DNA from: Flavihumibacter rivuli
GTDB lineage: Bacteria > Bacteroidota > Bacteroidia > Chitinophagales > Chitinophagaceae
Assembly (NCBI RefSeq): GCF_018595685.2
Contig: NZ_CP092334.1
Location: forward strand, 462,001 to 526,000
Length of the DNA: 64,000 nucleotides
Direction of reading: 5' to 3'
Shown piece after piece: positions 11,139 to 61,838 of this stretch. The translations under genes and the position numbers were made by a program. The stretch's first letter is position 1. Every line of letters starts with the position of its first letter. The notes below the pieces were generated by a model. It was not told where the DNA came from and ran no database searches. It saw only the letters and a program-made list of their open reading frames with translations.

Positions 11139-11929
11139 AAAAGGAATGGCTCATAGCGTTGTGCTATTGCATGGCAGGAATGGCAGCAATGGCCCAGGAC
11201 CAGTTCCAACTGGCACCACCTTTTATGAAGTATCCTTCTGTCTTTTTTGAGAAGGAAACAAGTGTTGGTTTGTTGTTCGCGCAGAAAGGGACAAGCATCC
11301 ATTATACTACTAACGGTAAAGTGCCCACGCAACAGGACCCTGAATACCGATCCCCGATCAGGATCACCGAACATAATACTACTGTAAAAGCGAAGGTGTT
11401 TGGCAAGGGATACCAGCCTTCGGATGTAGTGGAAGCAACCTTTATCAAAGGAGGGCTGCGAATCGCATCCATTAGCGGTACCGCGCCTTTTGCGCAGTAT
11501 GCCGGGGAAGGTGGGCAGTCCTTGAATGATAACAAAGGCGGTAACACTGCGTATACCAGCAAGACCTGGATGGGCTGGAAAGATGATCGGGTAAGCCTGA
11601 CCGTTAAACTGGCGCAGCCTGAAACAGTTGGTGCCATATTGCTTGACCTTTTGCAGGACCAGGGCAGTTGGATATTCTTTCCGGCAAGGGCAGAAGTGTA
11701 TGCTCTAGATTACGCTACGGAGTCGGAACAAAAAGTCGGGCAAATGGAATGGCAGCCGAGGGAAGGGAAGGATGTTAGTGTATGTAAGCCCTTCCTTTTG
11801 TCCTTTGACCAACCCGTTAAAACCGATATGGTCCGATTGGAATTATTTGTATTGCAGCAGATCCCTGACTGGCATCCCGGAAAAGGGCAGCGCAGCTGGA
11901 TATTCCTGGATGAAATAAAACTGTATTAA
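11135..11929 (+). CDS. Secreted protein with chitobiase C-terminal-like and beta-sandwich modules
   Basis: 264 residues with a signal peptide ending ...MAGMAAMAQ. Residues about 40-110 form a CHB_HEX_C-like module (IHYTTNGKVPTQQDPEYRSP); about 120-264 form a carbohydrate-binding-like beta-sandwich starting GEGGQSLNDNKGG and ending GKGQRSWIFLDEIKLY. The same pair of modules, in the same order, closes the next gene. No catalytic motif or haem site is present, so a binding or structural role is likely. The start overlaps the NHL gene by 4 bases and the next gene starts 2 bases after the stop. Confidence 0.8.
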   Translation: MKKEWLIALCYCMAGMAAMAQDQFQLAPPFMKYPSVFFEKETSVGLLFAQKGTSIHYTTNGKVPTQQDPEYRSPIRITEHNTTVKAKVFGKGYQPSDVVEATFIKGGLRIASISGTAPFAQYAGEGGQSLNDNKGGNTAYTSKTWMGWKDDRVSLTVKLAQPETVGAILLDLLQDQGSWIFFPARAEVYALDYATESEQKVGQMEWQPREGKDVSVCKPFLLSFDQPVKTDMVRLELFVLQQIPDWHPGKGQRSWIFLDEIKLY

Positions 11930-11931
11930 TC

Positions 11932-14073
11932 ATGACAACAGACTGGAAGCGGGTCTTATTCAATACCTGTATTGCCCTCAACTGCCTCTTGATCTTTTTG
12001 GTAGTATTTGGTAGTGAAATGCAATTGCCGTTGTGGTTACAGGTGACCGGAAGGTTTCACCCTTTGGCAGTGCATTTTCCCATTGTTTTAATGCTTGTGG
12101 CTTTTGTCTGGGAATTGTTTTTTACCCGGAAGGATTACGCAATATTAAGGGAAGCCGGTGATTGGTTCTTATTAGGTTCCGCCTTCACAGGAGTGTTGGC
12201 TGCCCTCATGGGGTTATTCCTTTCCAGGGAAGTGGGGTATGATCAGGACGCCATTGTTTACCATAAATGGACCGGTGTAGGAAGTGCTGTCATTAGTTTG
12301 ATCTGGTATGCTTCGAGGTCGTCAATAAGAAAGCGTAAGTTGTCAACGACCTTTGCCGGATTGATTGCAATGGGGGGAGTTGCGGTGGCGGGCCACCTGG
12401 GTGCCAATATCACCCATGGGTCAGATTTTTTGTTTGCGCCTGTAATGGCATCAAACCATCCAAAAGTATTGCTCGAAGATGCTATTGCTTATACCCACCT
12501 GATCAAGCCAATACTTGAAGACAAATGTGTGAGTTGCCATAATAACAGAAAGGCAAAAGGGGAACTGATCATGGAAACGGAGGCCCTGCTTTTGAAAGGT
12601 GGAAAAAACGGGAGGCTATGGGATAGTACAGCAAAGGATTTTGGCCTGATGATGCAACGGATCCATTTGCCGCTCGATGCTAAAGAGCATATGCCCCCCA
12701 AGGGGAAAGCCCAGTTAACGGAGGAGGAAGAGAAAGCGATCTATTACTGGATCAAGGGAGGTGCCAGTTTTACCCAAAGGATCATTGATCTGCCTGAAAC
12801 CGATACCCTGCGCATGATCGCAGCAGGATTCTTCACAACAGCTGAGCAGGATAGTTATTCATTTGAGCCGGCAAAGGAATCGTTGATAAAGGAATTGAAC
12901 ACCGATTACCGGGTAGTGAATCCCCTGGCATTGGGATCGCCGGCATTGAATGTGGAGTTTTTTGGACCGGTATTCTTCAAGCCTGAACAATTGAAGGAGT
13001 TAGAGAAAGTAAAAACACAGGTGGTCAGCCTGAACCTGGCAAAGATGCCGGTGACCGATGCGGACCTGAAATTGATCGGCAATTTCACTAACCTGCGCAA
13101 ACTAAACCTTTCCTTTACAAAGATCACCGGAGCAGGGCTCTCAGCTTTATCTGGCTTGAAAGACCTTCGTCAATTGTCCCTTTCCGGTACAGCAGTCAAG
13201 CCCGCTGATATTGCACAACTGAAGGGCCTTGAAAAATTAGCCACTATATATGCCTGGAATACCGGTGTGCAGGAAAAGGACCTGGATCTGCTGGCAAAGC
13301 AATTCCCTGATACCCGCATTGAAATGGGATTCAAAGGTGATACCATTAAGGTTAAATTGAACCCGCCGATCATTGAAGGGGAGCAGCAGGTCCTTACGGG
13401 CCCTACCACCATTATCCTTAAGCATTATGTGAATGGCGTTCAGTTACGCTATACGCTGGATGGAAAGGAGCCTGATAGTATCAACTCCCCGCTGTATAAA
13501 GACGGTATCCTGATCAATGGTACGGGTGTATTGAAAGCGAAAGCTTTCCTCCCGGGATGGTATAGCAGTGAGGTGGCATCAAAAAATTATTATAAGACAG
13601 GCTTCAGGCCGGATAGTGTTAGCCTGGTGGCCAAACCTGCTGCGTCCTACGCAGGTTCGGGTGGCAAGACCCTTGCTGATGGGGAGAAAGGTGACCTGAA
13701 TTTCCGGACAGAAAAATGGCTGGGCTATAAGGACAATGATATGGTTGCCCTGCTCTATTTCAATCAGCCTGCTGAGCTTTCCGGGATATCCGTCAGTACG
13801 ATCGTGGATATCGGGAATTACATTATGCCTGCGCAACAACTGGAGGTATGGGGAGGTGCCAATGCATCCGGATTGAAGTTATTGGGTAGATTGAATCCCG
13901 TTCAGCCAAAAGAGCAGGTGCCGGGCTATATGGTCGGATTTGATTTTGCTTTCGCAAAACAAAAAATAAGTGTGTTGAAACTGGTGGCAAGGCCGGTAAC
14001 CAAATTACCACCCTGGCATCGCGGCAAGGGTGAAAGGGGATGGGTGTTCATTGACGAAGTATTTATCAACTAA
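11932..14073 (+). CDS. Multidomain membrane cytochrome: DUF2231-like, haem c, LRR, CHB_HEX_C
   Basis: 713 residues. The N-terminal 160 hold about four to five membrane helices with RFHPLAVHFPIVLML and GHLGANITHG, a DUF2231-like module whose histidines could ligate haem b. A PSCyt1-type domain follows with CVSCH at Cys199 and MPPKGKAQLTEEEEKAIYYWI. Residues about 350-470 are leucine-rich repeats (NLRKLNLSFTKITGAGL, LRQLSLSGTAV). The end is a CHB_HEX_C-like module (LRYTLDGKEPDSINSPLYK) plus a beta-sandwich homologous to the preceding protein. It looks like the membrane anchor and electron acceptor of the five-gene run; that role is inferred. Confidence 0.85.
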   Translation: MTTDWKRVLFNTCIALNCLLIFLVVFGSEMQLPLWLQVTGRFHPLAVHFPIVLMLVAFVWELFFTRKDYAILREAGDWFLLGSAFTGVLAALMGLFLSREVGYDQDAIVYHKWTGVGSAVISLIWYASRSSIRKRKLSTTFAGLIAMGGVAVAGHLGANITHGSDFLFAPVMASNHPKVLLEDAIAYTHLIKPILEDKCVSCHNNRKAKGELIMETEALLLKGGKNGRLWDSTAKDFGLMMQRIHLPLDAKEHMPPKGKAQLTEEEEKAIYYWIKGGASFTQRIIDLPETDTLRMIAAGFFTTAEQDSYSFEPAKESLIKELNTDYRVVNPLALGSPALNVEFFGPVFFKPEQLKELEKVKTQVVSLNLAKMPVTDADLKLIGNFTNLRKLNLSFTKITGAGLSALSGLKDLRQLSLSGTAVKPADIAQLKGLEKLATIYAWNTGVQEKDLDLLAKQFPDTRIEMGFKGDTIKVKLNPPIIEGEQQVLTGPTTIILKHYVNGVQLRYTLDGKEPDSINSPLYKDGILINGTGVLKAKAFLPGWYSSEVASKNYYKTGFRPDSVSLVAKPAASYAGSGGKTLADGEKGDLNFRTEKWLGYKDNDMVALLYFNQPAELSGISVSTIVDIGNYIMPAQQLEVWGGANASGLKLLGRLNPVQPKEQVPGYMVGFDFAFAKQKISVLKLVARPVTKLPPWHRGKGERGWVFIDEVFIN

Positions 14074-14106
14074 AATGCAGCGGCATTTGCCGCTGCATTT
14101 TTTTAA
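14073..14106. terminator. Bidirectional intrinsic terminator
   Basis: A perfect 12-bp inverted repeat (14073-14084 with 14089-14100, loop ATTT) is followed by seven further bases of mostly T on the plus strand and preceded by A-rich sequence serving the minus strand. The last base of the upstream TAA stop codon is already in the stem. It separates the cytochrome run from the convergent proA. Confidence 0.9.
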
Positions 14107-14115
14107 ATATATGCT

Positions 14116-15357
14116 TTACCGGGTTTGGCCATTGCCCCTGATCACCCATTTTTCTGTGACCAGTTTTTCAAGTGCAAACGGTCCGCGCGCATGTAGTTTT
14201 TGGGTAGAGATACCGATCTCTGCACCCAAACCAAATACTTCCCCATCGGTGAACCTGGTTGAAGCATTGGCATATACGGCAGCGGCATCCACTGTTTTCA
14301 GGAAACGTTCGCAGGCTTTCTTGTCCTCCGAAACAATGGCCTCAGAATGTTTGGTGGAATATTCCGCAATATGGGCCAGTGCTTCATCCATATTCCTGAC
14401 CAACCTTATCGCGCATTTCAAGCTGAGGAACTCCCTGCCAAAATCCGCAGCCCTGGCTTTCTTCAGGAAGGGATAGCCTTTCATCAATGGGGAAGCGCCG
14501 GCATCTGCAAATATTTCTACCTCGTAGGGGGCAAGTCCGGCCAGTAACATCGGCAGGAAAACCTTTGCAATGGACTGGTCTACCAGTAAGGTGTCCACTG
14601 CATTGCAGACAGAAGGCCTTGATGTTTTGGCGTTCACGGCAATGGCCACTGCCTTTTCCAGGTTGGCTTTCTTCTCTACATATACATGGCAAACACCTGC
14701 GCCGGTCTCAATAACGGGCACGAGGCTGTTCTTCCTGACGTATTCGATCAGGCCGGCTGAGCCGCGCGGAATGATCACATCGATATACTTCGTAGCAGTA
14801 AACAATTGATCGACCACTTCCCTTGCAGAGGGTAAGAGGTTGACCACTTCAGGATCGATGCCCTGTGCTTTCAGTTGCTTTTTGATCAGTTTTACGGAGA
14901 AGCTATTGGTATGCTCGGCTTCACTGCTGCCTTTCAATAAACAGGCATTCCGGCTGCGGAGGCAAAGTCCAGCGATGTCAAAGGTTACATTTGGCCGGGA
15001 TTCATAAATGGCACCCACTACCCCGAGGGGTGTGCTTATCTTTTCAAGTTTAAGCCCCTTCTCGATGGTTCTTTTTTCCAATACCCTTCCCGTTGGATCG
15101 GGTAGCTGTGCCACTTTTCGAAGGCTATTGGCGATGGCCTTGATGCGTTGCTCATTCAACAGCAAACGATCATTGCGAGGGTTATTGGGATCTTGTTTGG
15201 CAAGGTCCATGGCATTGGCCTTTAGCAATCCTTTCGCTTCGGCTTCCATCGCAGTTGCAATGCCTTTCAGTGCCTGCCTGACCTGTTTGTCGGTCAATAA
15301 TTGCAGGCTGGTTGCTGCCTGGTGGGTCTTTTTTATGAGGGGTAATACTGATTTCAT
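14116..15357 (-). CDS. proA: Glutamate-5-semialdehyde dehydrogenase (gamma-glutamyl phosphate reductase)
   Basis: 413 residues, normal length for ProA. It reduces gamma-glutamyl phosphate with NADPH to glutamate-5-semialdehyde, the second step of proline synthesis. Motifs visible: YESRPNVTFDIAGLCLRS, ALKGSSEAEHTN-like region (LLKGSSEAEHTNSF), and TSRPSVCNAVDTLLVD with the catalytic cysteine. It lies 9 bp downstream of proB on the minus strand, giving the order proB-proA. A strong hairpin at 14073-14100 terminates it. Housekeeping gene; no unusual features. Confidence 0.97.
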   Translation of the reverse strand: MKSVLPLIKKTHQAATSLQLLTDKQVRQALKGIATAMEAEAKGLLKANAMDLAKQDPNNPRNDRLLLNEQRIKAIANSLRKVAQLPDPTGRVLEKRTIEKGLKLEKISTPLGVVGAIYESRPNVTFDIAGLCLRSRNACLLKGSSEAEHTNSFSVKLIKKQLKAQGIDPEVVNLLPSAREVVDQLFTATKYIDVIIPRGSAGLIEYVRKNSLVPVIETGAGVCHVYVEKKANLEKAVAIAVNAKTSRPSVCNAVDTLLVDQSIAKVFLPMLLAGLAPYEVEIFADAGASPLMKGYPFLKKARAADFGREFLSLKCAIRLVRNMDEALAHIAEYSTKHSEAIVSEDKKACERFLKTVDAAAVYANASTRFTDGEVFGLGAEIGISTQKLHARGPFALEKLVTEKWVIRGNGQTR

Positions 15358-47060: not shown

Positions 47061-48827
47061 ATGAGCCGAATTCTTCTTGCTGCCTATTCGATACTTTTAT
47101 TGTTCGCAACCATTTCCTGTGGCGGACAGGATAATGGCGGCCAGGTTTTACTGAACCAATTGGGTTTCTATTCTTATGCCCCCAAGATCGCCATTGTAAA
47201 AGAGCGGTCAGGAAGTGAAATTTTCTGGGTGGTGAATAATGGGAATGGCGATACCGTATTTAGCGGTAAGCTTGGCCCGGCTATTCAGTCTGCCTATTCT
47301 TCGATGGTTACCCGAAAAGCTGATTTCAGTGGCTTGACGCAATCCGGGCAATTCAGGGTGGTACTGAAAGGAGGTGCCAGTTCCCCCGCATTCAGGATTG
47401 GTAGCGGTATCGCTAATGACCTGGTGAAGGTTTCCATGAAAGGGTATTATTACCAGCGCTCCGATATCCCCTTGCTTCCTGAACATGCAGGGAAATGGGC
47501 GAGGCCCCTGGGGCATCCCGATGACAAGGTATTGATTCATGCTTCCGCAGCATCCGCTCAGCGGCCGGAAGGGACCATTGTGGCTTCCAGGGGTGGCTGG
47601 TACGATGCCGGTGATTATAATAAGTATGTAGTGAATTCTGGCATAACCATGGGCACGCTACTATCTGCCTATGAGGATTTCCCCGCTTACTTCGATTCAC
47701 TCCAATGGAATATCCCTGAATCCGGCAATAAAGTTCCTGATATCCTGGATGAGGTGATCTATAACCTGCGGTGGTTGTTTACCATGCAGGACCCCAATGA
47801 TGGTGGGGTATACCATAAATGTACCAATCCGAAGTTCGATGGCATGATCATGCCGGATAAGGCTAAGGAAACCCGTTACCTTGTACAGAAGGGTACAGGT
47901 GCTACCCTTGATTTTGTGGCAGTGATGGCACAGGCATCACGCGTGCTGAAAAAGTTTGACCATGCATTGCCCGGTCTTTCCGACAGTTGCCTGAAAGCGG
48001 CCCTATATGCCTGGCAATGGGCTGAACAGCATCCGGCTGTTGAGTATGACCAGGAAAAGAACAATAAGTCTTTTAAGCCGGAGGTCGTAACCGGCAGGTA
48101 TGGCGATACTAATTTTTCCGGGGAGTGGTTCTGGGCTTCCAGTGAATTGCTGATCACTACCGGTAATCAAGCATACCTGGATGTGCTGATGAAATGGAGA
48201 CGTGCCCCTATCCTTGTTCCCTGCTGGTATGATGTTGCCCCTATGGGTTATTTTTCACTTTTGAGAAATGCCAGGACCCAGGGTGCCAGACAATTGGTTG
48301 ATGCGAAACCCTTTTCCGACGAACTGCTGAAACTAGCTGACCTCCTGATCGCCAATGGGGGTAATAAAGCCTTTGGTACCATCATGGGACAGTCTGCTGA
48401 AGATTTTGTTTGGGGCTCCAATTCTGTAGCAGCCAACCAGGGGCTGGTTTTGGTGAATGCCTACCTGTACAGCGGAAACCCGAAATACCTTGACGCCGCC
48501 TTATCCAACCTGGATTACCTTACAGGCAGGAATGCCACTGGTTATTGCTTTATAACGGGAATGGGTAGCCGACCGCCGGTCAATGCCCACCACCGGCCAT
48601 CTGTTGCCGATAATAATCCTTTGCCTGTTCCAGGCCTCCTGGTGGGTGGTCCCAATAAATACAAACAGGATGGTTGTAAATATCCCCATGAAGGTGCAGA
48701 GCTTGCTTACCTCGATGAGGTTTGTTCCTACGCCAGTAATGAGATTGCCATCAACTGGAACGCCCCCCTGGTATATGTTGCAGTTGCCATGGAGGCTTTA
48801 CAATACAGGGCAGGCTGGATCAGGTAA
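47061..48827 (+). CDS. GH9 endoglucanase-type lipoprotein
   Basis: 588 residues. Signal with lipobox FATISC, so surface- or periplasm-anchored. Residues about 28-110 form the Ig-like N-terminal domain of GH9 (LLNQLGFYSYAPKIAIV); the (alpha/alpha)6 catalytic domain follows with GGWYDAGDYNKYVVNSG (Asp182/Asp185, nucleophilic-water site), YLTGRNATGYCFITGMGSR and ASNEIAINWNAPLVY (catalytic acid Glu561). HHRPS is conserved. Expected substrates are beta-1,4-glucans, mixed-linkage glucan or glucomannan. It precedes the SusC/SusD pair by 119 bp with a stem-loop between. Confidence 0.95.
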   Translation: MSRILLAAYSILLLFATISCGGQDNGGQVLLNQLGFYSYAPKIAIVKERSGSEIFWVVNNGNGDTVFSGKLGPAIQSAYSSMVTRKADFSGLTQSGQFRVVLKGGASSPAFRIGSGIANDLVKVSMKGYYYQRSDIPLLPEHAGKWARPLGHPDDKVLIHASAASAQRPEGTIVASRGGWYDAGDYNKYVVNSGITMGTLLSAYEDFPAYFDSLQWNIPESGNKVPDILDEVIYNLRWLFTMQDPNDGGVYHKCTNPKFDGMIMPDKAKETRYLVQKGTGATLDFVAVMAQASRVLKKFDHALPGLSDSCLKAALYAWQWAEQHPAVEYDQEKNNKSFKPEVVTGRYGDTNFSGEWFWASSELLITTGNQAYLDVLMKWRRAPILVPCWYDVAPMGYFSLLRNARTQGARQLVDAKPFSDELLKLADLLIANGGNKAFGTIMGQSAEDFVWGSNSVAANQGLVLVNAYLYSGNPKYLDAALSNLDYLTGRNATGYCFITGMGSRPPVNAHHRPSVADNNPLPVPGLLVGGPNKYKQDGCKYPHEGAELAYLDEVCSYASNEIAINWNAPLVYVAVAMEALQYRAGWIR

Positions 48828-48946: not shown

Positions 48947-51900
48947 ATGAGCAAGCCCAAGCGCATGCGGGCCTTAACCCTCGCGGCCCTGCTGGCAGTG
49001 GTATGTCCATCTGTAACCATTGCACAGCAACCTGTAACCGGACAGGTACTTTCAGCAAAAGACCAATCGCCGGTCCCCGGAGTAAGCATCATGCTAAAAG
49101 GTGATAAGAAAGGAACTTCCACTGGTACTGATGGAAAGTTCTCCCTTACTGCCAAACCCGGTGATGTGTTGATAGTGAGTGGTGTTGGTGTGACCACCCA
49201 GGAGTTCACTGTTGGAGATGAAGCTAAGGTCACTATCAATGTCCAACAATCAGCCAATTCACTCAATGAGGTTGTGGTGACTGCATTAGGGGTAAAGAAA
49301 GAAAAGAAAAAGATTGGTTATGCGGTCCAGGAAGTAAAGGGCGAAGACCTGGTGAAAGCACGCGAACCGAATCCTATCAATGGTTTGGTAGGAAAGGTAG
49401 CCGGCCTTACAGTAGGACTGAATTCCGAATTATTGTCCGCGCCCAATGTGTACCTCCGCGGCCGTAGCATCAACCTGTATGTAGTGGATGGTGTGCCCAT
49501 TAATTCCGATACCTGGAATATTTCACCTGATGATATTGAAAGCTACACCGTACTCAAAGGCGCCACCGCCTCTGCACTCTATGGTTCACGCGGCGTGAAT
49601 GGTGCGATCATGATCACCACCAAACGTGGTTCAAGGGACAAGCGTGGTTTCTCCATCGAATTCAATAGTTCCACCATGGTGGAGAATGGTTTCAATGCCA
49701 TTCCAAAGGTGCAGGATGAATATGGTCCTGGTGACCACGGTAAGTACGCTTTTGTAGATGGTAAAGGTGGCGGTACCAATGATGGCGACTATGATGTTTG
49801 GGGGCCGAAGTTTGAAGGCCAGTTGATCCCCCAGTATGATTCGCCCATTGATCCTGTGACCGGGGAGCGAATCCCAACCCCATGGGTGGCGCGCGGTAAG
49901 GATAACCTGAAGCGTTTCCTCGAGCCCGGATTGTTATCTACCAACAGTATTGCCGTTTCATCCAGAACAGAGAAATCTGACCTGCGCTTCGCAGTTTCGC
50001 ACAGTTACCAGAAGGGGATTGTTCCCAATACCCAATTGAATATTACCAATTTCAATATTTCCGGTGGCTATAATTTCACTGACAAACTCAGGCTGGAGTC
50101 CTATATCAATTACAACAGGCAGTATTCTGATAATTTCCCTGATGTGACCTATGGTCCCAACAGTATCATCTATAACATCATCCTCTGGGCAGGAGCAGAC
50201 TGGAGCATGGATGACATGCGCAATTACTGGCAGCCTGGAAAGGAAGGCGTACAATCCATCTATGCAGAATACCAGCGCTACCACAACCCCTATTTCATGT
50301 CTTATGAGTGGTTGCGCGGCCATAATAAGAACGACCTGAACGGTAATATCAAGATGACCTATAAGTTGAACAAGAACCTTGATTTCCTGGTGCGCACGCA
50401 GGTGACTACCTATGACCTGTTCCGCAACGAGAAGATGCCCTACAGCGCCCATCCCTACGGCAGGGAAGAAGGAAAGGGTGATTACAGGGAAGACAGGAGG
50501 GCCATGTTTGAGAACAATACCGATTTCCTGGTAACCTACCAGAATAGCAACCTTTTGAAGGATATCAGTATCAAGGCATCTGTTGGTGGTAATGCCCGCA
50601 ACTTCAGTTACAATTCCAACTTCACCACTACCGATTACCTGAACGTTCCCGGACTTTATGCCTTCTCCAATAGCCGTAACCCCATCAAGGCAAGCAGTTT
50701 CAGGTCCAATATGCTGGCACTAAGCGCCTATGGTTACCTCGACCTGGGATTCAGTAAATATGCCAACCTCTCCCTCACGGGAAGGGTGGATAAACTCTCT
50801 ACCCTGCCGCAAGGAAACAATACCTATTTCTATCCATCCGCCTCTTTGAGTACAGTGGTGAGTGATTACCTGGACCTGCCCAATGCGATATCCATGCTGA
50901 AGTTCAGGGGATCCTATGCCAATGTAAAGGGCGGATTGACACAGGCCTATATTGGCGCTACCCCCCAAGCCAGCTATCCGCTGAGCTACGGTGCAGAATA
51001 TTATTCTTCCTATGATGGACCGACATTTGAAAACTCGGCTTCCTATTCCACCCCGCTGGTTTACGACAATAAGGCCGGTGCTTACTTTACCAATACCATC
51101 AACAACCCGAATATCAAACCATTCAGCTCAGAAGTGGTGGAAGCCGGTGCTGATATCCGCTTCCTGAATAATCGCTTAGGCCTCGACGTTACCTATTTTA
51201 CCACCAAGGATGGTCCCGGCATCTTCAAGCTTCCCATTTCCCAGACCACCGGGTTTACCGAAGCCCTGGTGAACGGTATTACTACACGCAAGACAGGATG
51301 GGAACTTACCCTCACCGGTTCGCCACTGCGCAATCCCAAGGGGTTGAACTGGGACGTGTTGGTAAACTGGAGTACGTTCAAGGAAAAGTATGTGAGCTTC
51401 TATCCGGGTGTAGAAGCCTTGAATACCTTCTTTAAGGTGGGCGACAGGGTAGATAAACTGTATGGCAGTGCCTTCGTTCGTACCCCAGATGGACAGCTGA
51501 TCAATGATGCAGGTGGACGTCCCTTGCGCGCACCGGTGGCCCAGTACCTGGGTAACAGGAACTCGGATTGGGTTTGGGCGATCAACAACAGTTTCCGTTA
51601 CAAGAACTTCAACCTGAGTTTCCAGTTCGATGGCCGTGTGGGTGGCAAGGTGATCAATTATATCCAGCAACAGACCTATCGCGGTGGCCGCCACATCAAT
51701 ACCGTGCAGGGTGAAATGGGTGAAGCCCGTTACCAGGATTACCTGGGCAATAAATCGTGGGTAGGGGATGGCGTGGTAGTAAGTAATGGTGTGCCCATCA
51801 AATATGATGTGGATGGAAGGGTGACCAATTACAAGGAGCTGCAGTATGCGCCCAATACCACCAAGACCTTCCTGCAGGATTATATCAGCTTCTATTATGC

Positions 51901-52156
51901 CACCAATGAGGCCAACCTGATCAGCAGGACCTTTGCCAAGCTGAGGGAAGTGGTGATCGGTTATACCTTCCCGCCATCCATGCTGGGCAAGTCATTCATC
52001 CGCCAGGCGAGCATCTCTTTTGTTGGCCGTAACCTGCTGTACTTCTCCCAATACAAGGACCTTGACCTTGACCAGTACGCTGGTACAGAAAGCAGCTCCA
52101 GCCTTCAAACACCCACGACCAGGCGTTATGGCGTCAACCTGAACCTTACATTCTAA
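48947..52156 (+). CDS. SusC/RagA-type TonB-dependent outer-membrane transporter
   Basis: 1069 residues. Signal peptide ending PSVTIAQ; residues about 26-100 a carboxypeptidase-regulatory-like domain (VTGQVLSAKDQSPVPGVSIM); a TonB-box-like segment NEVVVTALGVKKEKK; plug domain with YVVDGVPINSDTWN and TVLKGATASALYGSRGVNGAIMI; then a 22-strand barrel ending RRYGVNLNLTF with terminal Phe. It forms a pedestal-bin complex with the SusD-like lipoprotein 20 bp downstream and imports ligand using TonB energy. Neighbours suggest either a GH9 product or a phosphonate-bearing compound as ligand. Confidence 0.96.
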   Translation: MSKPKRMRALTLAALLAVVCPSVTIAQQPVTGQVLSAKDQSPVPGVSIMLKGDKKGTSTGTDGKFSLTAKPGDVLIVSGVGVTTQEFTVGDEAKVTINVQQSANSLNEVVVTALGVKKEKKKIGYAVQEVKGEDLVKAREPNPINGLVGKVAGLTVGLNSELLSAPNVYLRGRSINLYVVDGVPINSDTWNISPDDIESYTVLKGATASALYGSRGVNGAIMITTKRGSRDKRGFSIEFNSSTMVENGFNAIPKVQDEYGPGDHGKYAFVDGKGGGTNDGDYDVWGPKFEGQLIPQYDSPIDPVTGERIPTPWVARGKDNLKRFLEPGLLSTNSIAVSSRTEKSDLRFAVSHSYQKGIVPNTQLNITNFNISGGYNFTDKLRLESYINYNRQYSDNFPDVTYGPNSIIYNIILWAGADWSMDDMRNYWQPGKEGVQSIYAEYQRYHNPYFMSYEWLRGHNKNDLNGNIKMTYKLNKNLDFLVRTQVTTYDLFRNEKMPYSAHPYGREEGKGDYREDRRAMFENNTDFLVTYQNSNLLKDISIKASVGGNARNFSYNSNFTTTDYLNVPGLYAFSNSRNPIKASSFRSNMLALSAYGYLDLGFSKYANLSLTGRVDKLSTLPQGNNTYFYPSASLSTVVSDYLDLPNAISMLKFRGSYANVKGGLTQAYIGATPQASYPLSYGAEYYSSYDGPTFENSASYSTPLVYDNKAGAYFTNTINNPNIKPFSSEVVEAGADIRFLNNRLGLDVTYFTTKDGPGIFKLPISQTTGFTEALVNGITTRKTGWELTLTGSPLRNPKGLNWDVLVNWSTFKEKYVSFYPGVEALNTFFKVGDRVDKLYGSAFVRTPDGQLINDAGGRPLRAPVAQYLGNRNSDWVWAINNSFRYKNFNLSFQFDGRVGGKVINYIQQQTYRGGRHINTVQGEMGEARYQDYLGNKSWVGDGVVVSNGVPIKYDVDGRVTNYKELQYAPNTTKTFLQDYISFYYATNEANLISRTFAKLREVVIGYTFPPSMLGKSFIRQASISFVGRNLLYFSQYKDLDLDQYAGTESSSSLQTPTTRRYGVNLNLTF

Positions 52157-52176
52157 TCGAACAAAAAAACTATATC

Positions 52177-53739
52177 ATGAAACTTAAGCAAATCATATTC
52201 CCTGCTGCTATCGCCTTCACCATGGTGTTGGGAGGCTGCTCAGATAAATTTGAGGAGTACGAGCGGAACCCTAACCGGGCGGAAAGTGTGAGTCCTGACC
52301 TGGTATTCCGTGGGGTTGTATCCGACATGAATATCGACAGGCCCTGGAGCAATATCACCCGTTGGAACCAGTTCGATTGCTGCAACTATAATTACTACGG
52401 CGACCAGCGCTATGACTGGACCGGCGCCAGCCTTAACTACACTACCCTGAAGAATGTAGTGAAGATGGAGGAAGAAGCGATCAAACGTGGCCAGCCTGAG
52501 GTGAATCCCTATAGCGCCCTTGGAAAATTTGCCCGTGCCTTCTTTTATTATCGCATGAGCAGCCTGGTGGGTGACCTCCCCATGAACGAAGCACTCAAGG
52601 GATTGGAGGTTACCACCCCTAAGTATGATGCACAGAAGGATATCTTTCTACAGATCCTGGATTGGCTGGAAAAGTCCAATACCGAACTAACCCAGTTGAT
52701 CGCATCCGGTGACCGGAGCCTGGATGGTGATATCTATTTTGCCAACGACCTTCGGAAATGGCAGAAAGTTGTCAATACTTTCCGCTTGCGGGTATTGATC
52801 TCCATGAGCAGGAGGGAAGGTGAAGCTGGTTTGAACCTCAAGGCCCAGTTTGCTGAGTTATTCAATAACAAGGCTAAATATCCCATGATGGAAAGTATGC
52901 AGGATAACCTCCAGTATGCTTACAGCCAGTTCAATAAATACCCGAGTAATCCTGACAATCTCGGTTTCGACGCAACCCGTTACAACCTTTCCGCAACCCA
53001 CCTGGATAACCTGGTGACCATTAATGATCCCAGGGCTTATATAGTTGCCGAACCAGCCACCAAACAGTTGAATACTAATGGCAAGACTCCTGCGGATATT
53101 ACTGCCTATGTTGGCGCGCCCGCAGGGGAAGACCTGGCAAATATGTCGAGCAAGATGGCCAATGCTGAGCAGGCGGAGTATTCAGTAAGGAGCAGGAGCC
53201 GTTATTACAACAATTATGTTGGTGAGCCCGGTATTATCATCGGCTATCCGGAAATGTGCTTCAATATCGCTGAAGCCATCAACAGGGGCTGGTTGACTGG
53301 GGATGCGGAAGAATGGTACAAGAACGGAATCAAGGCCTCCTGGAGATTTTATGGCATCCCTGTTGAAATGGCAGGTAGCATTACCAAGATCTACAATAAC
53401 CAGAGCTATGTGATCCCGGTTGATTTCGAAGGTGTGTATTACAAGCAGGCTGCTGTAAAGTATTCCGGGAACAATACGGATGGATTGAAGCAAATCCTTA
53501 TCCAAAAATACCTTGCCTTTTTCCAGAACTCCGGTTGGGAAGCTTATTTCAACTGGCGCAGGACAGGACTCCCCGATTTCTCTGTAGGCACAGGTACAGG
53601 CAATAGCGGAGCCATTCCAATGCGCTTCCAATATCCTTCTTCTGAAAGAACTACCAACAGTGCGAATTGGACCAGCGCCCTCCAATCCCAATATGGCGGG
53701 GAGGATAATATTAATGCAAGGATGTGGTTGGTGAAATAG
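52177..53739 (+). CDS. SusD/RagB-like lipoprotein
   Basis: 520 residues. Lipobox LGGC with Cys21. It resembles the SusD-like_2 group (DLVFRGVVSDMNIDRPWSNITRWNQ at the N-terminus, GKFARAFFYYRMSSLVGDLPM, EMCFNIAEAINRGWL, WEAYFNWRRTGLPDF at the C-terminus with the conserved helical repeats). It caps the SusC-like barrel and binds the ligand at the cell surface. No signal of carbohydrate specificity can be read. Confidence 0.94.
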   Translation: MKLKQIIFPAAIAFTMVLGGCSDKFEEYERNPNRAESVSPDLVFRGVVSDMNIDRPWSNITRWNQFDCCNYNYYGDQRYDWTGASLNYTTLKNVVKMEEEAIKRGQPEVNPYSALGKFARAFFYYRMSSLVGDLPMNEALKGLEVTTPKYDAQKDIFLQILDWLEKSNTELTQLIASGDRSLDGDIYFANDLRKWQKVVNTFRLRVLISMSRREGEAGLNLKAQFAELFNNKAKYPMMESMQDNLQYAYSQFNKYPSNPDNLGFDATRYNLSATHLDNLVTINDPRAYIVAEPATKQLNTNGKTPADITAYVGAPAGEDLANMSSKMANAEQAEYSVRSRSRYYNNYVGEPGIIIGYPEMCFNIAEAINRGWLTGDAEEWYKNGIKASWRFYGIPVEMAGSITKIYNNQSYVIPVDFEGVYYKQAAVKYSGNNTDGLKQILIQKYLAFFQNSGWEAYFNWRRTGLPDFSVGTGTGNSGAIPMRFQYPSSERTTNSANWTSALQSQYGGEDNINARMWLVK

Positions 53740-53751
53740 GGAAACCAGAAT

Positions 53752-53799
53752 ATGTGGACATGTGGACATGTGAATATGTGAATATGTGAATATGTGCAT
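53752..53799. repeat. Six-unit 8-bp tandem repeat with inverted counterpart
   Basis: Units ATGTGGAC x2, ATGTGAAT x3, ATGTGCAT x1 in perfect 8-bp register directly after the SusD-like gene. The same octamer recurs inverted at about 53939-53961 (ATCCACATGTCCACATCC), just before the HD gene. Between them is no recognisable gene. It could be a slippage-prone tract or a binding array. Confidence 0.7.
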
Positions 53800-53975
53800 T
53801 TTTGCCTACCAATGAATGTCCTTATTGGGTTCAATGAGTATTTATTGAGGGAATAGTTAAAAGCAGGATCAAACCATAAAAAGGACTCTTCATAAACTTA
53901 CCCAGCCTTCTGGTACAATGGTTAGTGTAAAACACTCATATCCACATGTCCACATCCACATAAAAAATGATAATC

Positions 53976-54551
53976 ATGACTTCCTCCCAACTAATCGCAC
54001 AAAAGATCATCCGGTTATTTAACGCGCAAGGGGCTGCCGAATATGCCGGCGAAAGGGTTTCGCAGTTGGAGCATATGGTGCAGGCTGCGTCGTTGGCAAA
54101 GGCTGAAGGCTATGATGATGAAGTGGTGCTGGCGGCCTTCCTCCATGATATCGGCCACCTGCTTCATCCCGAAGGGAATGCAGGCATGGATGGATATGGG
54201 ACGATGGACCATGAGAAGGTAGGTGCAGAATATCTCCTTTCACTGGGCTTCGGTAAACGCATGTGCCGGCTGATCGCTTCCCATGTTGATGCCAAGCGAT
54301 ACCTTACCTATGCTGACCCGGCCTATTATGATCAGCTGTCTGAAGCCAGTAAGAGAACCCTGGAATTCCAGGGTGGCAGGATGGGGCCGGAAGAGGCTAA
54401 TGTTTTTGAAAGCGATCCGTACTTTGACCTATATATCTGTATGCGGAAATGGGATGAAGCGGCCAAGGTGGAGAACCTGCCAATGCCCGACTGGCTGGAG
54501 TATGAAACAATGATCGAGAACTACCTGGATAAAAGAAATGGTGCCTATTGA
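53976..54551 (+). CDS. PhnZ-like HD-domain phosphonate oxygenase
   Basis: 191 residues from the ATG at 53976 (MTSSQLIAQK); an ATG three codons earlier is possible. HD-domain mixed-valence diiron oxygenase type, as named for phosphonate-operon HDIG proteins. Residues visible: Tyr23, Glu26, His33, His57-Asp58, His79, His103, Lys107, Asp160, each one less than the PhnZ residues as I recall them (Tyr24, Glu27, His34, His58-Asp59, His80, His104, Lys108, Asp161). PhnZ cleaves 2-amino-1-hydroxyethylphosphonate into glycine and phosphate. No PhnY hydroxylase is nearby. It converges on the HAD gene with a 7-bp overlap. Confidence 0.88.
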   Translation: MTSSQLIAQKIIRLFNAQGAAEYAGERVSQLEHMVQAASLAKAEGYDDEVVLAAFLHDIGHLLHPEGNAGMDGYGTMDHEKVGAEYLLSLGFGKRMCRLIASHVDAKRYLTYADPAYYDQLSEASKRTLEFQGGRMGPEEANVFESDPYFDLYICMRKWDEAAKVENLPMPDWLEYETMIENYLDKRNGAY

Positions 54552-54570
54552 GCAGGCACCATTTCTTTTT
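54531..54570. terminator. Bidirectional terminator built from both gene ends
   Basis: AAAAGAAATGGTGCC (54531-54545) pairs perfectly over 15 bp with 54555-54569, loop TATTGAGCA, flanked by T-rich ends on both strands. The stops of the HD gene (54549-54551) and of the convergent HAD gene (54545-54547) lie in or at the edge of the loop, so the hairpin arms also code for the C-termini of both proteins. Confidence 0.88.
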
Positions 54571-55279
54571 TAAGGAATGCCATTAATCCCCTTAAGGAAT
54601 CAAATGCCTGGTCTGGGTTATGGGGCAGGAGTTGTTGAGCAGTATGGGTCCCATTGCTAACGCAACAGGAATAAAGGCAGTTGGCGCGTTTGCCTGACTC
54701 AATATCAGATGGCGTGTCACCGATATTGATGACAGTTTTCGGATCATTGATGCCCAATGTGTTCATGGCTTTCAGGATCATGTCAGGTGCGGGTCTGCCT
54801 TTCGCCACTTCATCACTCGCGATGGAAGCCTGGATGATAGTGTTAGCATTACCAAGGTGCTGGCTATCCAGTCCTTCCAGCCAGCCCAGTTTGCCCAGGA
54901 TAATATTCGTCACCTTACGGTAGAAACCGGTTGTAAGGGCTATGGCGATACCCTGATCCTTCAGCCAGGTAAATAGTTCGGTGCAGCCTTCGGTTGGCAG
55001 GACCTGGTTTTGGTGGTAATGGGCTTCCAGTACCTCGGTAAATCGTTGATAGGACTGGGCTACCCTTAGCACCCATTCTTCATTCCTTTGTCCCAATTGC
55101 CTTTCCCAGAAGGTTTCGAAAACATGGCGCTTTCCCCAACCCTGGACTGCCAATATTTCCTCATCGGTCATTTCCAGCCCTGTTTCCCTGGCGGCAAGGG
55201 CAAAACAATACTCCACTTCATGCTTATCTGTTACTGTTGTGCCGGCCATATCAAAGACCACTAGTTGTATGCTATTCAT
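54545..55279 (-). CDS. PhnX-like phosphonatase-family HAD hydrolase
   Basis: 244 residues. HAD motif I is FDMAGTTVTD: nucleophile Asp10 but Ala at position 12 where most HAD phosphatases have Asp, as in phosphonoacetaldehyde hydrolase (DWAGTT). The cap has Lys50 in QGWGKRHVFETF, near the place of the PhnX Schiff-base Lys53. Motif II TTGF, motif III Lys in KGRPAPDMIL, motif IV INIGDTPSDIESG. This supports C-P bond hydrolysis of phosphonoacetaldehyde or an analogue. It is the last gene of a three-gene minus-strand operon with the FAD oxidoreductase 11 bp upstream. Confidence 0.87.
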   Translation of the reverse strand: MNSIQLVVFDMAGTTVTDKHEVEYCFALAARETGLEMTDEEILAVQGWGKRHVFETFWERQLGQRNEEWVLRVAQSYQRFTEVLEAHYHQNQVLPTEGCTELFTWLKDQGIAIALTTGFYRKVTNIILGKLGWLEGLDSQHLGNANTIIQASIASDEVAKGRPAPDMILKAMNTLGINDPKTVINIGDTPSDIESGKRANCLYSCCVSNGTHTAQQLLPHNPDQAFDSLRGLMAFLKKEMVPAQ

Positions 55280-55290
55280 GTATCCATGGT

Positions 55291-56448
55291 TTAATCAAAA
55301 AGTTGGTGAATATGTTCCTCTGCTAATGCGGCACTTGCAGTCATACCTTTTCCGCCTATGGCGGTAACGATATGGACGTTGGGTTCAACGGTTTCCAGAA
55401 AAACATCGTGATGTTTTCTTTGTGCATAGTACCCGTTCCATTGCCTGGTCACCCTCCATTCAGGGAAGGCAAACATTCTTTGGGCTTCTGAAAGCATGAT
55501 ATCGGTGATCTCCTGGTTACAATGGAAGCCCAGTTCATCTGAATTCCTTGCATCTGCATACTCGTGTGAATCACCAATGATGATGCTGCCGTCAATGGCC
55601 TGCTTGAACAATAAGTGGATGCCCCATTTCCTGAAGGATGATGGAATATTGGCAGCATCCAGTTTTTTGTAGGATGGGCATTCTGTAAAGCTTTCATAGC
55701 GCCTGATGCTTAAGCCACTGAGGATGGAACCGGGTAGGTCAAGTCCATCCATCGGGGCAATGGAGAGCATCTGTAATTTGGACACTTCGATATCACTGGA
55801 ATAGAATGTTTCCGGGTAAAGATGCCTGAAGTCGCGCCCATTGCAGATCACCGCCTTTTTGCTTTTGTAGGTATTGCCATGGTTATCCCTGACCTTGATA
55901 TGGTCGCTGCCCTGTTCAATCGACTGCACAAGGGTAAGGGGCTTATAAGTAATACTGTATTGTTCCTTCAGGCAAGCAATGAGTTGGTGGATCATCAGGT
56001 GTGGCTCAATGGTGATCTCTCCAGGGAAGAAGAGGCCGCCCATGCAATAAGATGCCCTTAGTCCCGGGAACCTTGCCAGGCATTCTTCCTTGCTGAGGAT
56101 CGTGGAGTGGTAATGTTGCTGTTGATTGATGGCGGTGAGTTCTTCAATCAGGGTCAGCTCTGTATTGTCGGATGCCAGGTAAACTGTTCCATTTTCGCGT
56201 ATACTGATATCAAATGATCTTTGGATCTCCCGGTAGATCTCCATGCTCCTGCGTCCATATTCCTGCCACTTGCCTTGCGGCATACCCGATGGCACAACCT
56301 GGCCAAAATTGCGAACGGTTGCTTCGTTGGGTTGGTGGTCCTTCTCCAGTAGGAGCACATTCAAGCCTTTCCTGGCTGCATGGTAGGCATGGAAACTTCC
56401 TAATACACCGGCGCCAATAACCATAAGGTCATAATGTTGATTCAACAT
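55291..56448 (-). CDS. HpnW-type (TIGR03364) FAD-dependent oxidoreductase
   Basis: 385 residues from the ATG at 56448; the frame is open further but that region codes for the end of the MFS protein. DAO-superfamily fold: VIGAGVLGSFHAYHAARKG binds FAD, EATVRNFGQVVPSGMPQGK is the subfamily signature, VTAIGGKGMTASAALAEE closes the FAD site. The subfamily occurs in phosphonate operons and related enzymes have been reported to oxidise aminoethylphosphonate or its N-methyl form to phosphonoacetaldehyde, which the next gene could hydrolyse. Start overlaps the MFS stop by 20 bases. Confidence 0.9.
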   Translation of the reverse strand: MLNQHYDLMVIGAGVLGSFHAYHAARKGLNVLLLEKDHQPNEATVRNFGQVVPSGMPQGKWQEYGRRSMEIYREIQRSFDISIRENGTVYLASDNTELTLIEELTAINQQQHYHSTILSKEECLARFPGLRASYCMGGLFFPGEITIEPHLMIHQLIACLKEQYSITYKPLTLVQSIEQGSDHIKVRDNHGNTYKSKKAVICNGRDFRHLYPETFYSSDIEVSKLQMLSIAPMDGLDLPGSILSGLSIRRYESFTECPSYKKLDAANIPSSFRKWGIHLLFKQAIDGSIIIGDSHEYADARNSDELGFHCNQEITDIMLSEAQRMFAFPEWRVTRQWNGYYAQRKHHDVFLETVEPNVHIVTAIGGKGMTASAALAEEHIHQLFD

Positions 56449-57733
56449 GTTGTGGGTTTGTGGGTTGATGTTTTTTGTATAGTTGGTAAATGAATATTGC
56501 TCCGGTGGTAAGTGTGGCCATGCCAACCAATGGCATCCAAAGGCTGAGTTGGACAAAGTAATGGTACCAGTCTGCCTTGGCTGACCCGGTTTCATTCATG
56601 ATGATGATGATACAACTGCCAAGGTAGGCCATGGCATCCATGATATAGAACAGGTAGCCGGTGTTTCCCCTGATCCGAAAGCAGGAGAGCAGCCTGTCGA
56701 TGAGCAGGCATTGAAGCGTGTTGTAGGCCGAATATAGGCAGATGGTGTAGGTCACCATACAGCCCAGGGCTTGTCCCGGATGGGTGATCATCAGGCCTGT
56801 ACTGATCCAAAGTCCTGAAATGCCGGCAAGGATCACAATAGCCTGTCTTTTCAGGCTGGTGTAATGATTGCGTATATTGGTCAGCGTTAGTAGTCCCAGG
56901 AATACCACTATGGCTGCCAGGGTCTCCATCCTGGCAAAAATGGAAGGCGGATAATCGGGATGGATGCTCCTGATGATCTCTACTGCATAATTGTCTTTAA
57001 GGTCCCTTAGGATGGTGAAAATGATATTGAGCACTACCAGGCTGAACACCATGGGAAAGAATGCCTTGACCAGGTTTGAACGCTGCCGGGCATCCATGGG
57101 AAGCCGATCGCCCCTGTCCAGGCGCTCTGCTGCATTAGGGGGTGGGATCTTTGCCAGCAACCAGGTGGAGGCTAGTAGAAGTGGGATAAAAAGGCAGCCG
57201 AGGTAAAAGGGCATCCTGGCTTCCTCCACTCCCCAATCAGTGATGACCATTCTGCCAAGGCTTTTCACCATGCCTGAACTGAAAATGAAATTGGTGCTGA
57301 GGATCAGGGCCAGGAGGTCGGTATATTTTCGGCCTTCTATATAACTGAAGACCAATCCCCAGATCAGGCCAAGGGAAAGGCCATTGAGAAATAACCATAC
57401 TGGTCCTAAGACCATTGGAGTGAAGGCCAGGCCGGCCAGGCAAACTAGTGCCGTGCCGATCAATCCCAACAGGTAATAGGGCCTACGCTTCATGTTGAGG
57501 GTGGCCATGAACCTGATCCCGATGAATTTGGACAGCATATAGCCAAAGACCTGGGCGATAATGAGGGATGATTTGAAGGAAATCCCCCAATTGTCAAGCC
57601 CGTCAAAAGTGGCGGCGCTGATGGATTTCCGGTAAACGTACATACAGAAATAGGTAGCAAAACTTGCCGTGGCCGCAAGGCCTACCATTGTCCATTTTGG
57701 GGAGGCAGCATCATTTGTAAGCATGCCGTGCAA
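56429..57733 (-). CDS. DUF5690 MFS transporter, candidate phosphonate importer
   Basis: 434 residues (the fourth codon, ATG at 57724, is an alternative start); about twelve membrane helices. LAATASFATYFCMYVYRKSISAATF and VFGYMLSKFIGIRFMA are typical of the glycerol-3-phosphate/phosphonate-like MFS branch called DUF5690 in Bacteroidota. First gene of the operon with the FAD oxidoreductase and HAD hydrolase, so inner-membrane import of an organophosphonate is the best guess. The gene has GH20 divergently upstream; 232 bp between them. Confidence 0.87.
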   Translation of the reverse strand: MHGMLTNDAASPKWTMVGLAATASFATYFCMYVYRKSISAATFDGLDNWGISFKSSLIIAQVFGYMLSKFIGIRFMATLNMKRRPYYLLGLIGTALVCLAGLAFTPMVLGPVWLFLNGLSLGLIWGLVFSYIEGRKYTDLLALILSTNFIFSSGMVKSLGRMVITDWGVEEARMPFYLGCLFIPLLLASTWLLAKIPPPNAAERLDRGDRLPMDARQRSNLVKAFFPMVFSLVVLNIIFTILRDLKDNYAVEIIRSIHPDYPPSIFARMETLAAIVVFLGLLTLTNIRNHYTSLKRQAIVILAGISGLWISTGLMITHPGQALGCMVTYTICLYSAYNTLQCLLIDRLLSCFRIRGNTGYLFYIMDAMAYLGSCIIIIMNETGSAKADWYHYFVQLSLWMPLVGMATLTTGAIFIYQLYKKHQPTNPQHVESTL

Positions 57734-60548: not shown

Positions 60549-61838
60549 TTATTTGTCGAACTCCACGATATAGGTGGAGAAATATTTTCCCAGGTCCGAG
60601 TATTTGAAGAATAGCCTGGCCTTTTTGCCCAGCTTCAGGCTGGTGCGTCTGGCCTTGATGTCCTCCTCTGTATTCATGGGTTGCAGGGAAGGATACCATA
60701 ACACATGGCCCGGCTTCTTGAGCAATAGCTGTGGCTTCGTCCATGCCTGGGAGTTAGTACCCGATCCAAGGTCCTTGTTCTGATTGAAGGAAATATATAG
60801 TTCATCACCGACCCATGATTGGCCTTCAACCCTTCCCATCATCATGACCCAGCATTCCAGGTGTTCATTCCAGCTAACGGATGGACCCCAATGAAAACCA
60901 CCAGTTGGGGAAGATGCCGGTCCGCCGCCTTCTGCAATGGGTATCTGCAGCGAGCTAATGGGTTGGCCTACCCCATCCCAGGGCGCATTGAAGCCCTTGC
61001 CGTCCCAGCGTTTGGCCTTTCCTTGCGGATCATCGAGGTCGGATAAGGCGATCCTTGCTACACTGATGCATTGGCCGCCCCATTCCTTTGCCGGGTCATA
61101 GGTGGCCGGTTCATACTTCCCTGGATAACCATATTCGCCATAAAAAAGATAAAGGTGGTCGCCAACGGCCACTGCTGATGGGTCTCCAACGCCTCCTGCA
61201 AAGGTCTTGGAAGTATTGTGTGGTTTCAGGATCATACGTGCCTGCTTGTCTTCCAGGAAAAGCCCGCGGTTCTCCCAGTTCCATCCGCCATCAACTGACT
61301 TCATGATCCCTATACGGCAAACGGCAGCAGGGGTAATGCGTTCCGTGAGGCCAAGGGGCCAGTCCTTGTCAATATAACCCTCACCTGTAACCGAATCATG
61401 GGGCAATGTTTGCGGGTAGTTCTCATTATGGTAAATGGCATACAGGGTCTTGCCGCTGCTATCCCCTTTGTCCTGGTAAACGGTTTCAAACCAGATGGCG
61501 CCATGCAAGCCCTTTTGGCCAACCGGGGCATTGAGAGGGAGATGAGGTGCTATATAGGCGCTTGCGGGATTGCTGAATGCCTCATCCGCATTGGCGCCAC
61601 TGGAGAATTTGAGGTCATGGGCTTCCCCCCATACCGGGTCCTCACCATATTTGCCGGGAAATATCCGGAACGTATCGCCGACCCAGGTCTCTGCCATATT
61701 GCAGTCCACGAAATTGTTGAAATGGAAACTGTCTGTTTCAACCAGCCTGAAGCTGGGTTGTTTTTCGTTCTTGCAGGCCAGCAATGCTCCCAGGAGGCAT
61801 AGGGAACTGCCTGCTTTTAATGCTTGTAGTCGGTTCAT
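60549..61838 (-). CDS. Lipoprotein with beta-propeller-like glycosidase fold (DUF4185/GH43-like)
   Basis: 429 residues, lipobox LLGALLAC. The body has repeated blade-like segments with aromatic and acidic residues (GVGDPSAVAVGDHLYLFYGEYG, GGFHWGPSVSWNEHLECWVMMMG, HVLWYPSLQPMN), reminiscent of five-bladed beta-propeller enzymes. No family could be assigned with certainty. It is convergent with GH20 and followed upstream by the kinase-like gene on the same strand, so a role in glycan use is plausible. Confidence 0.6.
   Translation of the reverse strand: MNRLQALKAGSSLCLLGALLACKNEKQPSFRLVETDSFHFNNFVDCNMAETWVGDTFRIFPGKYGEDPVWGEAHDLKFSSGANADEAFSNPASAYIAPHLPLNAPVGQKGLHGAIWFETVYQDKGDSSGKTLYAIYHNENYPQTLPHDSVTGEGYIDKDWPLGLTERITPAAVCRIGIMKSVDGGWNWENRGLFLEDKQARMILKPHNTSKTFAGGVGDPSAVAVGDHLYLFYGEYGYPGKYEPATYDPAKEWGGQCISVARIALSDLDDPQGKAKRWDGKGFNAPWDGVGQPISSLQIPIAEGGGPASSPTGGFHWGPSVSWNEHLECWVMMMGRVEGQSWVGDELYISFNQNKDLGSGTNSQAWTKPQLLLKKPGHVLWYPSLQPMNTEEDIKARRTSLKLGKKARLFFKYSDLGKYFSTYIVEFDK

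Follow-up and report, generated by a model that had tools for sequence, protein, structure and literature searches.

Gene content of the locus

We analyzed a 64,000-nucleotide stretch of the Flavihumibacter rivuli genome (assembly GCF_018595685.2, contig NZ_CP092334.1, positions 462,001 to 526,000), hereafter called the window, in which six genes form a candidate locus for the use of phosphonates, compounds with a carbon-phosphorus (C-P) bond. The forward strand carries the genes of a SusC/SusD pair (SusCD) and of an HD oxygenase, and a tight reverse-strand set, encoding a HAD hydrolase, a FAD oxidoreductase, and a DUF5690 permease with the fold of the major facilitator superfamily (MFS), converges on the HD gene (Table 1). 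The SusD and HD genes are separated by 227 bp with no called gene inside, and the convergent HD and HAD genes overlap by 7 bp. The FAD reading frame opens at 56595; its probable start is the ATG at 56448 (385 aa), preferred because the protein has the same length in a relative of the same genus (L032) and the TIGR03364 match begins 5 residues later. An earlier note, made from the sequence alone, had described these six genes, and profile matches and coordinates confirmed their families, order, and overlaps. With its adjacent SusC and SusD genes and catabolic genes conserved alongside, the locus has the organization of a SusCD utilization locus of the polysaccharide utilization locus (PUL) or phosphate utilization system (PUS) type.

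Table 1. Genes of the locus and flanking gene, with positions in the window and best profile evidence
Feature	Position	Strand	Evidence
SusC-type TonB-dependent outer-membrane transporter	48947..52156	+	TIGR04056 470.5 bits, cut-off 368.25
SusD-like surface lipoprotein	52177..53739	+	PF12771 222.9 bits; lipobox LGGC read from sequence
PhnZ-like HD diiron oxygenase	53967..54551	+	TIGR03276 213.4 bits, cut-off 214.6; PhnZ motifs kept
PhnX-like HAD hydrolase	54545..55279	-	TIGR03351 171.8 bits, under cut-off 218.9
PbfD/HpnW-type FAD amine oxidoreductase	55291..56448	-	TIGR03364 397.7 bits, over cut-off 285.1
DUF5690 MFS-fold permease, candidate aminophosphonate importer	56429..57733	-	PF18943 390.5 bits
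GH9 glycoside hydrolase, flanking, judged outside the locus	47061..48827	+	PF00759 286.5 bits

The HD protein is identical to PhnZ (4MLM) at 76 of 178 aligned residues (43%). It retains the YxxE loop (Y26, E29) and the residues H36, H60, D61, H82, H106, and D163, all invariant in a 32-row alignment; PhnZ-type HD oxygenases are characterized by this loop and by the diiron motif H...HD...H...H...D (PMC8177086). A fifth histidine, H64, is also invariant, and five invariant histidines are described as a trait of the TIGR03276 clade (PMC11203657). By its family, the HD protein is predicted to cleave the C-P bond of a 1-hydroxyphosphonate. The HAD protein bears the motif DMAGTT (DxAGT type) at D10, and its K50 is aligned with Lys53 of PhnX; both D10 and K50 are invariant in 27 of 27 rows. 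We take the aspartate of this motif to be the nucleophile and Lys53 to be the cap lysine of PhnX.

As for the FAD protein, its family TIGR03364 includes PbfD1, and PbfD enzymes oxidize N-methyl-2-aminoethylphosphonate (M1AEP), PbfD2 also 2-aminoethylphosphonate (AEP), and they can replace PhnW (PMC10590968). The idea of the earlier note that an amine-oxidizing flavoenzyme takes the place of PhnW agrees with this published enzymology. The oxidation of M1AEP or AEP to phosphonoacetaldehyde is assigned to the FAD protein by family, the PbfD activity having been demonstrated elsewhere.

The partners of the classical PhnWX and PhnY*Z pathways were not found at the locus: no PhnW match exceeded the cut-off in the whole F. 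rivuli genome, and no PhyH-family gene lies beside the HD gene. The earlier note had reported the absence of a PhnY hydroxylase, and no PhnY* was found in the locus; the genome has four PhyH-family genes elsewhere, the nearest 128 kb from the HD gene. A search for the HD protein across 147 genomes of the family found it in 38, including F. rivuli; PhyH, PhnD, and PhnJ were searched in 33 of these 38 (G025, G043, G048, G095, and G122 were omitted). None of the 33 had a PhyH match within 30 kb of the HD gene, and unlinked PhyH genes occurred in 31. PhnJ, of the C-P lyase, was found in 0/33, F. rivuli included, with Escherichia coli positive as control. Because of this absence, the locus would be the route of these genomes to C-P phosphorus.

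Conservation of the locus and exchange of its enzymes

Neighborhoods were fetched for 36 of the other 37 genomes with the HD protein; that of G025, which is in pieces, was read as L162. The profile models for the 36 loci were built from those same loci, so that the counts describe clusters found by mutual similarity, and matches were taken without overlap filtering, here and in the 80-locus set described below. The commonest gene order was [helix-turn-helix (HTH)-cupin regulator]-SusC-SusD-AP-HD-HAD-DUF5690-FAD, where AP is a protein of the alkaline-phosphatase family. Among the 36 loci, SusC plus SusD was present in 30, SusD in 33, AP in 31, DUF5690 in 34, a FAD enzyme of either of two types (FAD or FAD2) in 34, HAD in 27, and the HTH-cupin gene in 15. 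L032 and L033 share with the window a DUF5690 gene that runs against the direction of HD. Four of the six loci without SusC (L033, L044, L055, and L065) are truncated next to the cluster by the end of the contig or of the fetched stretch, and L064 and L067 truly lack it; in L064 the HD gene stands alone, and the SusC-SusD-AP-HAD-DUF5690-FAD set of the same genome sits elsewhere (L157). Furthermore, DUF5690 occurs in 38/38 genomes with the HD protein versus 29/109 of the others (Fisher 3e-17, genome kinship uncorrected). The locus recurs in Chitinophagaceae and in other Bacteroidota.

SusCD pairs usually serve glycans, and the GH9 gene lies about 120 bp upstream of SusC on the same strand; the pair could thus belong to a glycan locus, with the phosphonate genes as accidental neighbors. 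The comparison of gene order largely refutes this explanation, which we regard as remote: SusD stands upstream of HD, in the same direction, in 33/36 relatives, and no GH9 homolog was found in any of the 36 loci (0/36, any frame, E 1e-5). The earlier note had named conservation of SusCD with GH9 as grounds for giving up its reading, and these figures, with DUF5690 in 34/36 loci, place SusCD with the phosphonate genes.

In two loci, the enzymes are exchanged and the transporters are kept. L057 and L058 retain SusC, SusD, AP, HD, and DUF5690, and PhnA-PhnY-PhnW replace HAD, together with a different FAD enzyme. In L057, PhnA (496 bits), PhnY (phosphonoacetaldehyde dehydrogenase, 665 bits), and PhnW (485 bits) are all above cut-off; in L058, their homologs occupy the same place (by similarity). 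Six further genomes have an HD locus without HAD and without PhnA, and five of them encode a PhnX-like HAD over cut-off outside the HD locus: about 9 kb from it and beside PhnW in G019, 1.3 kb from a second DUF5690 gene in G013, and elsewhere in three others. The sixth, G008, from the genus of the window, has no such HAD, and its PhnA, over cut-off, lies 1.6 kb from a second DUF5690 gene. All six genomes therefore retain an enzyme that, judging from its family, could complete the breakdown of phosphonoacetaldehyde or phosphonoacetate.

By its sequence, the AP-family protein begins with a signal-like segment, and its model shows an alkaline-phosphatase fold (pLDDT 82); its nearest structure is PafA by VIA-align, and sulfatases come first by Foldseek. 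The single AP homolog found in F. rivuli (49%) stands alone at C1:3010758 of that genome (G000), unlinked to the locus. Other loci have an additional GDPD (3/36) or PF04185-like protein (7/36). Coming to the account of the locus given in the earlier note, it is supported in part; it did not include the conserved hydrolase of AP type, the variant with PhnWYA, or the link of DUF5690 with phosphonate enzymes.

In L088 (Saprospiraceae), a DUF3419 gene (6541-7737), presumably encoding a BtaA-like betaine-lipid synthase, lies between the AP-family gene and a DUF5690-FAD-SusCD cluster, a placement that would fit lipid remodeling under phosphorus starvation. The same arrangement, judged from gene size only, is seen in L093 (uncultured Bacteroidetes).

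The outer- and inner-membrane transporters

The SusC protein of the window is 71% identical to the SusC of the same gene context in G085 (L036). We scored SusC copies in bits against the window SusC and counted a copy as linked when it was within 15 kb of DUF5690. Among copies of at least 1000 bits, 29/38 were linked; the fractions were 0/23 at 600-1000 bits and 7/29 at 430-600 bits, where the copies include a second SusCD type, seen in L032.

The substrate range of this transporter class could be wider. SusCD and AP may form a PUS-like system for scavenging organophosphates in general, such as phosphate diesters and lipid head groups, with the phosphonate enzymes merely sharing the neighborhood and the regulon of inorganic phosphate (Pi) starvation, as the PusCD complexes of Flavobacterium would suggest (PMC8115612). 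The main support comes from 25 related SusC loci whose fetched stretches showed neither DUF5690 nor phosphonate enzymes. In 12 of them, SusD is followed by a gene of phosphoesterase or phosphatase type: five by weak similarity to the AP model (one Pfam-confirmed as PF01663), the rest being AP, GDPD, phospholipase C, PF04185-like, tyrosine phosphatase, or HAD genes. SusCD is followed by AP in L152 and by GDPD in L154, and related pairs adjoin phosphoesterase genes without phosphonate enzymes in L177 and L178 too, so that this class of porins may not be limited to phosphonates. However, the remaining 13/25 loci show different genes, no gene, or a truncation at this place, the SusC class nearest to that of the window is the one linked to DUF5690 and the next score band shows no linkage, and the position of SusD before HD is nearly constant. 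On balance, we consider general organophosphate scavenging unlikely as the main role, although it carries some weight, and the gene contexts suggest that the SusCD lineage is partly organophosphorus. L178 is also a candidate phospholipid head-group locus, as a phospholipase C gene (12887-15304; PF04185 plus a C-terminal domain) comes straight after its related SusCD.

DUF5690 was also scanned in named genomes, and the best 80 of 570 confirmed loci were read; at least two of the 80 appear also to be training genomes (L128 = G009, L147 = G096). A phosphonate enzyme gene was present in the stretch in 66/80 and within 300 bp of DUF5690 in 62/80, and 27/80 had SusCD as well. In the Flavobacteriaceae representative L072, DUF5690-FAD-HAD is accompanied by HTH-cupin, SusC-SusD, and a PF01663 phosphodiesterase. 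In Chryseobacterium rhizosphaerae (L086; 7118-9976, 13442-15295), a plain TonB receptor replaces SusCD beside DUF5690-FAD-HAD, and the PF01663 phosphodiesterase bears a type IX secretion sorting tail.

The AlphaFold model of DUF5690 (pLDDT 90) has G6PT1/SLC37A4 as its top five Foldseek hits, with NorA near-tied in Z (33.4 vs 33.8), and the invariant residues R35, K36, and K69 align with R45, K46, and K80 of GlpT. The fold hits and aligned residues point to a resemblance of DUF5690 to the organophosphate:phosphate antiporters (OPA; GlpT, G6PT/SLC37A4), whereas hhalign gave no significant sequence relation to GlpT (E 0.061, probability 0.9%). We propose that DUF5690 is an aminophosphonate permease resembling these antiporters.

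Outside Bacteroidota, DUF5690 was seen in Xanthomonadales genera (L080, L098, L116, L120, L132, L133, L139, and L144) and in Planctomycetota (L110, L111, and L131); some of these genes adjoin FAD, HAD, or HD genes, and lateral transfer is possible. In L110 (Rhodopirellula), a zinc alcohol-dehydrogenase-type gene (11229-12401) lies between DUF5690 and HD and is possibly a further entry enzyme.

Proposed function and relation to known systems

We conclude, on the basis of comparative genomics, that SusCD and DUF5690 take part in a phosphonate utilization locus. The conclusion rests on the conserved gene set, the enzyme exchange with transporters kept, the complementation outside the locus, the linkage of SusC with DUF5690, the retained motifs, the absence of PhnJ, and the recurrence elsewhere in Bacteroidota. 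The locus would scavenge phosphorus from aminophosphonates and probably also from esters of these (head groups of phosphonolipids or glycans), a reading to which we assign a probability of roughly 75%.

SusCD would catch the compound, a free phosphonate or a phosphonate ester or lipid head group, at the cell surface, and TonB-driven SusC would import it. Then, an exported hydrolase of the alkaline-phosphatase superfamily, sometimes a GDPD, would free the aminophosphonate; its gene is in the loci of most relatives and unlinked in F. rivuli. DUF5690 would move the aminophosphonate into the cytoplasm. There, the PbfD-type flavoenzyme, by family, would turn M1AEP and/or AEP into phosphonoacetaldehyde, which the PhnX-like HAD would split into acetaldehyde and phosphate. 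In parallel, the PhnZ-like HD oxygenase is expected, by family, to split (R)-1-hydroxy-AEP into glycine and phosphate; this substrate may be taken up as such, a supply of ready-made hydroxyphosphonate that the earlier note had also suggested. The locus may be under Pi control.

Several observations weigh against this reading. The window locus has neither an AP gene nor an HTH-cupin regulator; SusD and HD are apart; HAD, FAD, and DUF5690 lie on the opposite strand and are of a diverged subtype (the FAD protein is about 30% identical to most relatives), so that co-regulation with SusCD does not follow from the layout. The HD protein is 1.2 bits short of the curated TIGR03276 cut-off, and the HAD is 47 bits below that of TIGR03351, which is why we call them PhnZ-like and PhnX-like, respectively. 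Among the 80 best DUF5690 loci, 14 have no phosphonate enzyme. Nine SusC copies scoring 1000 bits or more are unlinked, and four of them stand in intact stretches devoid of phosphonate genes (L152, L154, L155, and L156); as for the other five, L153 stops where its contig ends, G025 and G122 are divided among contigs, and G076 and G112 were unread there. Lastly, import by an ABC system could serve this strain, as its genome encodes, away from the locus, a PhnD-like ABC binding protein that exceeds the cut-off (121.3 bits, C1:3663505). Such a protein is over cut-off in 3/33 genomes with the HD protein, F. rivuli included, and reaches E 1e-3 in 9/33; none was found in 24/33.

The enzyme logic is already known. 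The PbfD-PhnX hydrolytic pathway for AEP and M1AEP likewise combines a TIGR03364 FAD oxidase and PhnX without PhnW, and is found in the FCB group too, but the available main text has PhnZ only as an unrelated oxidative route and mentions neither SusC nor Bacteroidetes (PMC10590968). The oxidative PhnY*-PhnZ pathway (PhnZ 4MLM; TmpA/TmpB) shares the HD oxygenase with its YxxE loop and diiron ligands and differs in the PhyH-family partner, absent near HD in the genomes searched. In Achromobacter, clusters of PhnHD, which is a TIGR03276 HD protein, HpnW, and PhnX without PhnY* have been described; the operon there is hpnWphnSXUT, with a LysR regulator and phnW elsewhere in the genome, and SusCD, AP, and DUF5690 were not met in the available text (PMC11203657). 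These Achromobacter strains degrade glyphosate, which induces their phosphonatase clusters with the same HpnW/PhnHD/PhnX trio, and the locus studied here could likewise serve glyphosate or another man-made aminophosphonate. We deem this highly improbable, as the 80 best named loci include those of the marine Zobellia, Leeuwenhoekiella, and Muricauda, and the AP-type esterases point to natural esters.

As regards the transporters, the earlier note had expected SusC/SusD dedicated to phosphonates to be new. This expectation is not supported in that form: in Flavobacterium, PusCD complexes induced by Pi starvation co-localize with phosphodiesterases and phosphonate-degrading enzymes (PMC8115612). 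The PUS resembles the present locus in having SusCD beside phosphoesterases. In the available text of that paper, the association with phosphonate enzymes takes one sentence and is not worked out, PhnX, PhnA, and PhnW are not named, and HD, FAD, and DUF5690 were not met, although the overlap may be larger. DUF5690 is unmentioned in the open literature searched, where we found neither a role for it nor the conserved locus with DUF5690 as a unit. The enzymes are thus of known kinds, and what sets the locus apart is the outer-membrane gate together with an unstudied inner-membrane transporter.

The phosphonate importers characterized so far are largely ABC systems, joined by a few transporters of other kinds, and come mainly from Proteobacteria. 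A broader view, which we hold tentatively and at somewhat less than even odds, is that DUF5690 founds, mainly in Bacteroidota, a class of dedicated aminophosphonate permeases of OPA type. With SusCD and the exported phosphonate esterase, it would complete an outer-membrane-to-cytoplasm route for phosphonate esters, e.g., phosphonolipid head groups, without an ABC importer, and the inner enzymes PbfD-PhnX, PhnW-PhnY-PhnA, and PhnZ would be interchangeable modules. If true, the SusCD-DUF5690 route would explain phosphonate access in Bacteroidota lacking C-P lyase (0/33) and mostly without a PhnD-like protein (24/33). It would also assign a function to an unstudied family of transporters and add C-P compounds to the glycans and phosphate esters served by SusCD loci.

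Beyond the locus, a predicted 429-aa protein with no Pfam match at 1e-3 (window 60549-61838, reverse strand) adjoins a GH20 gene.

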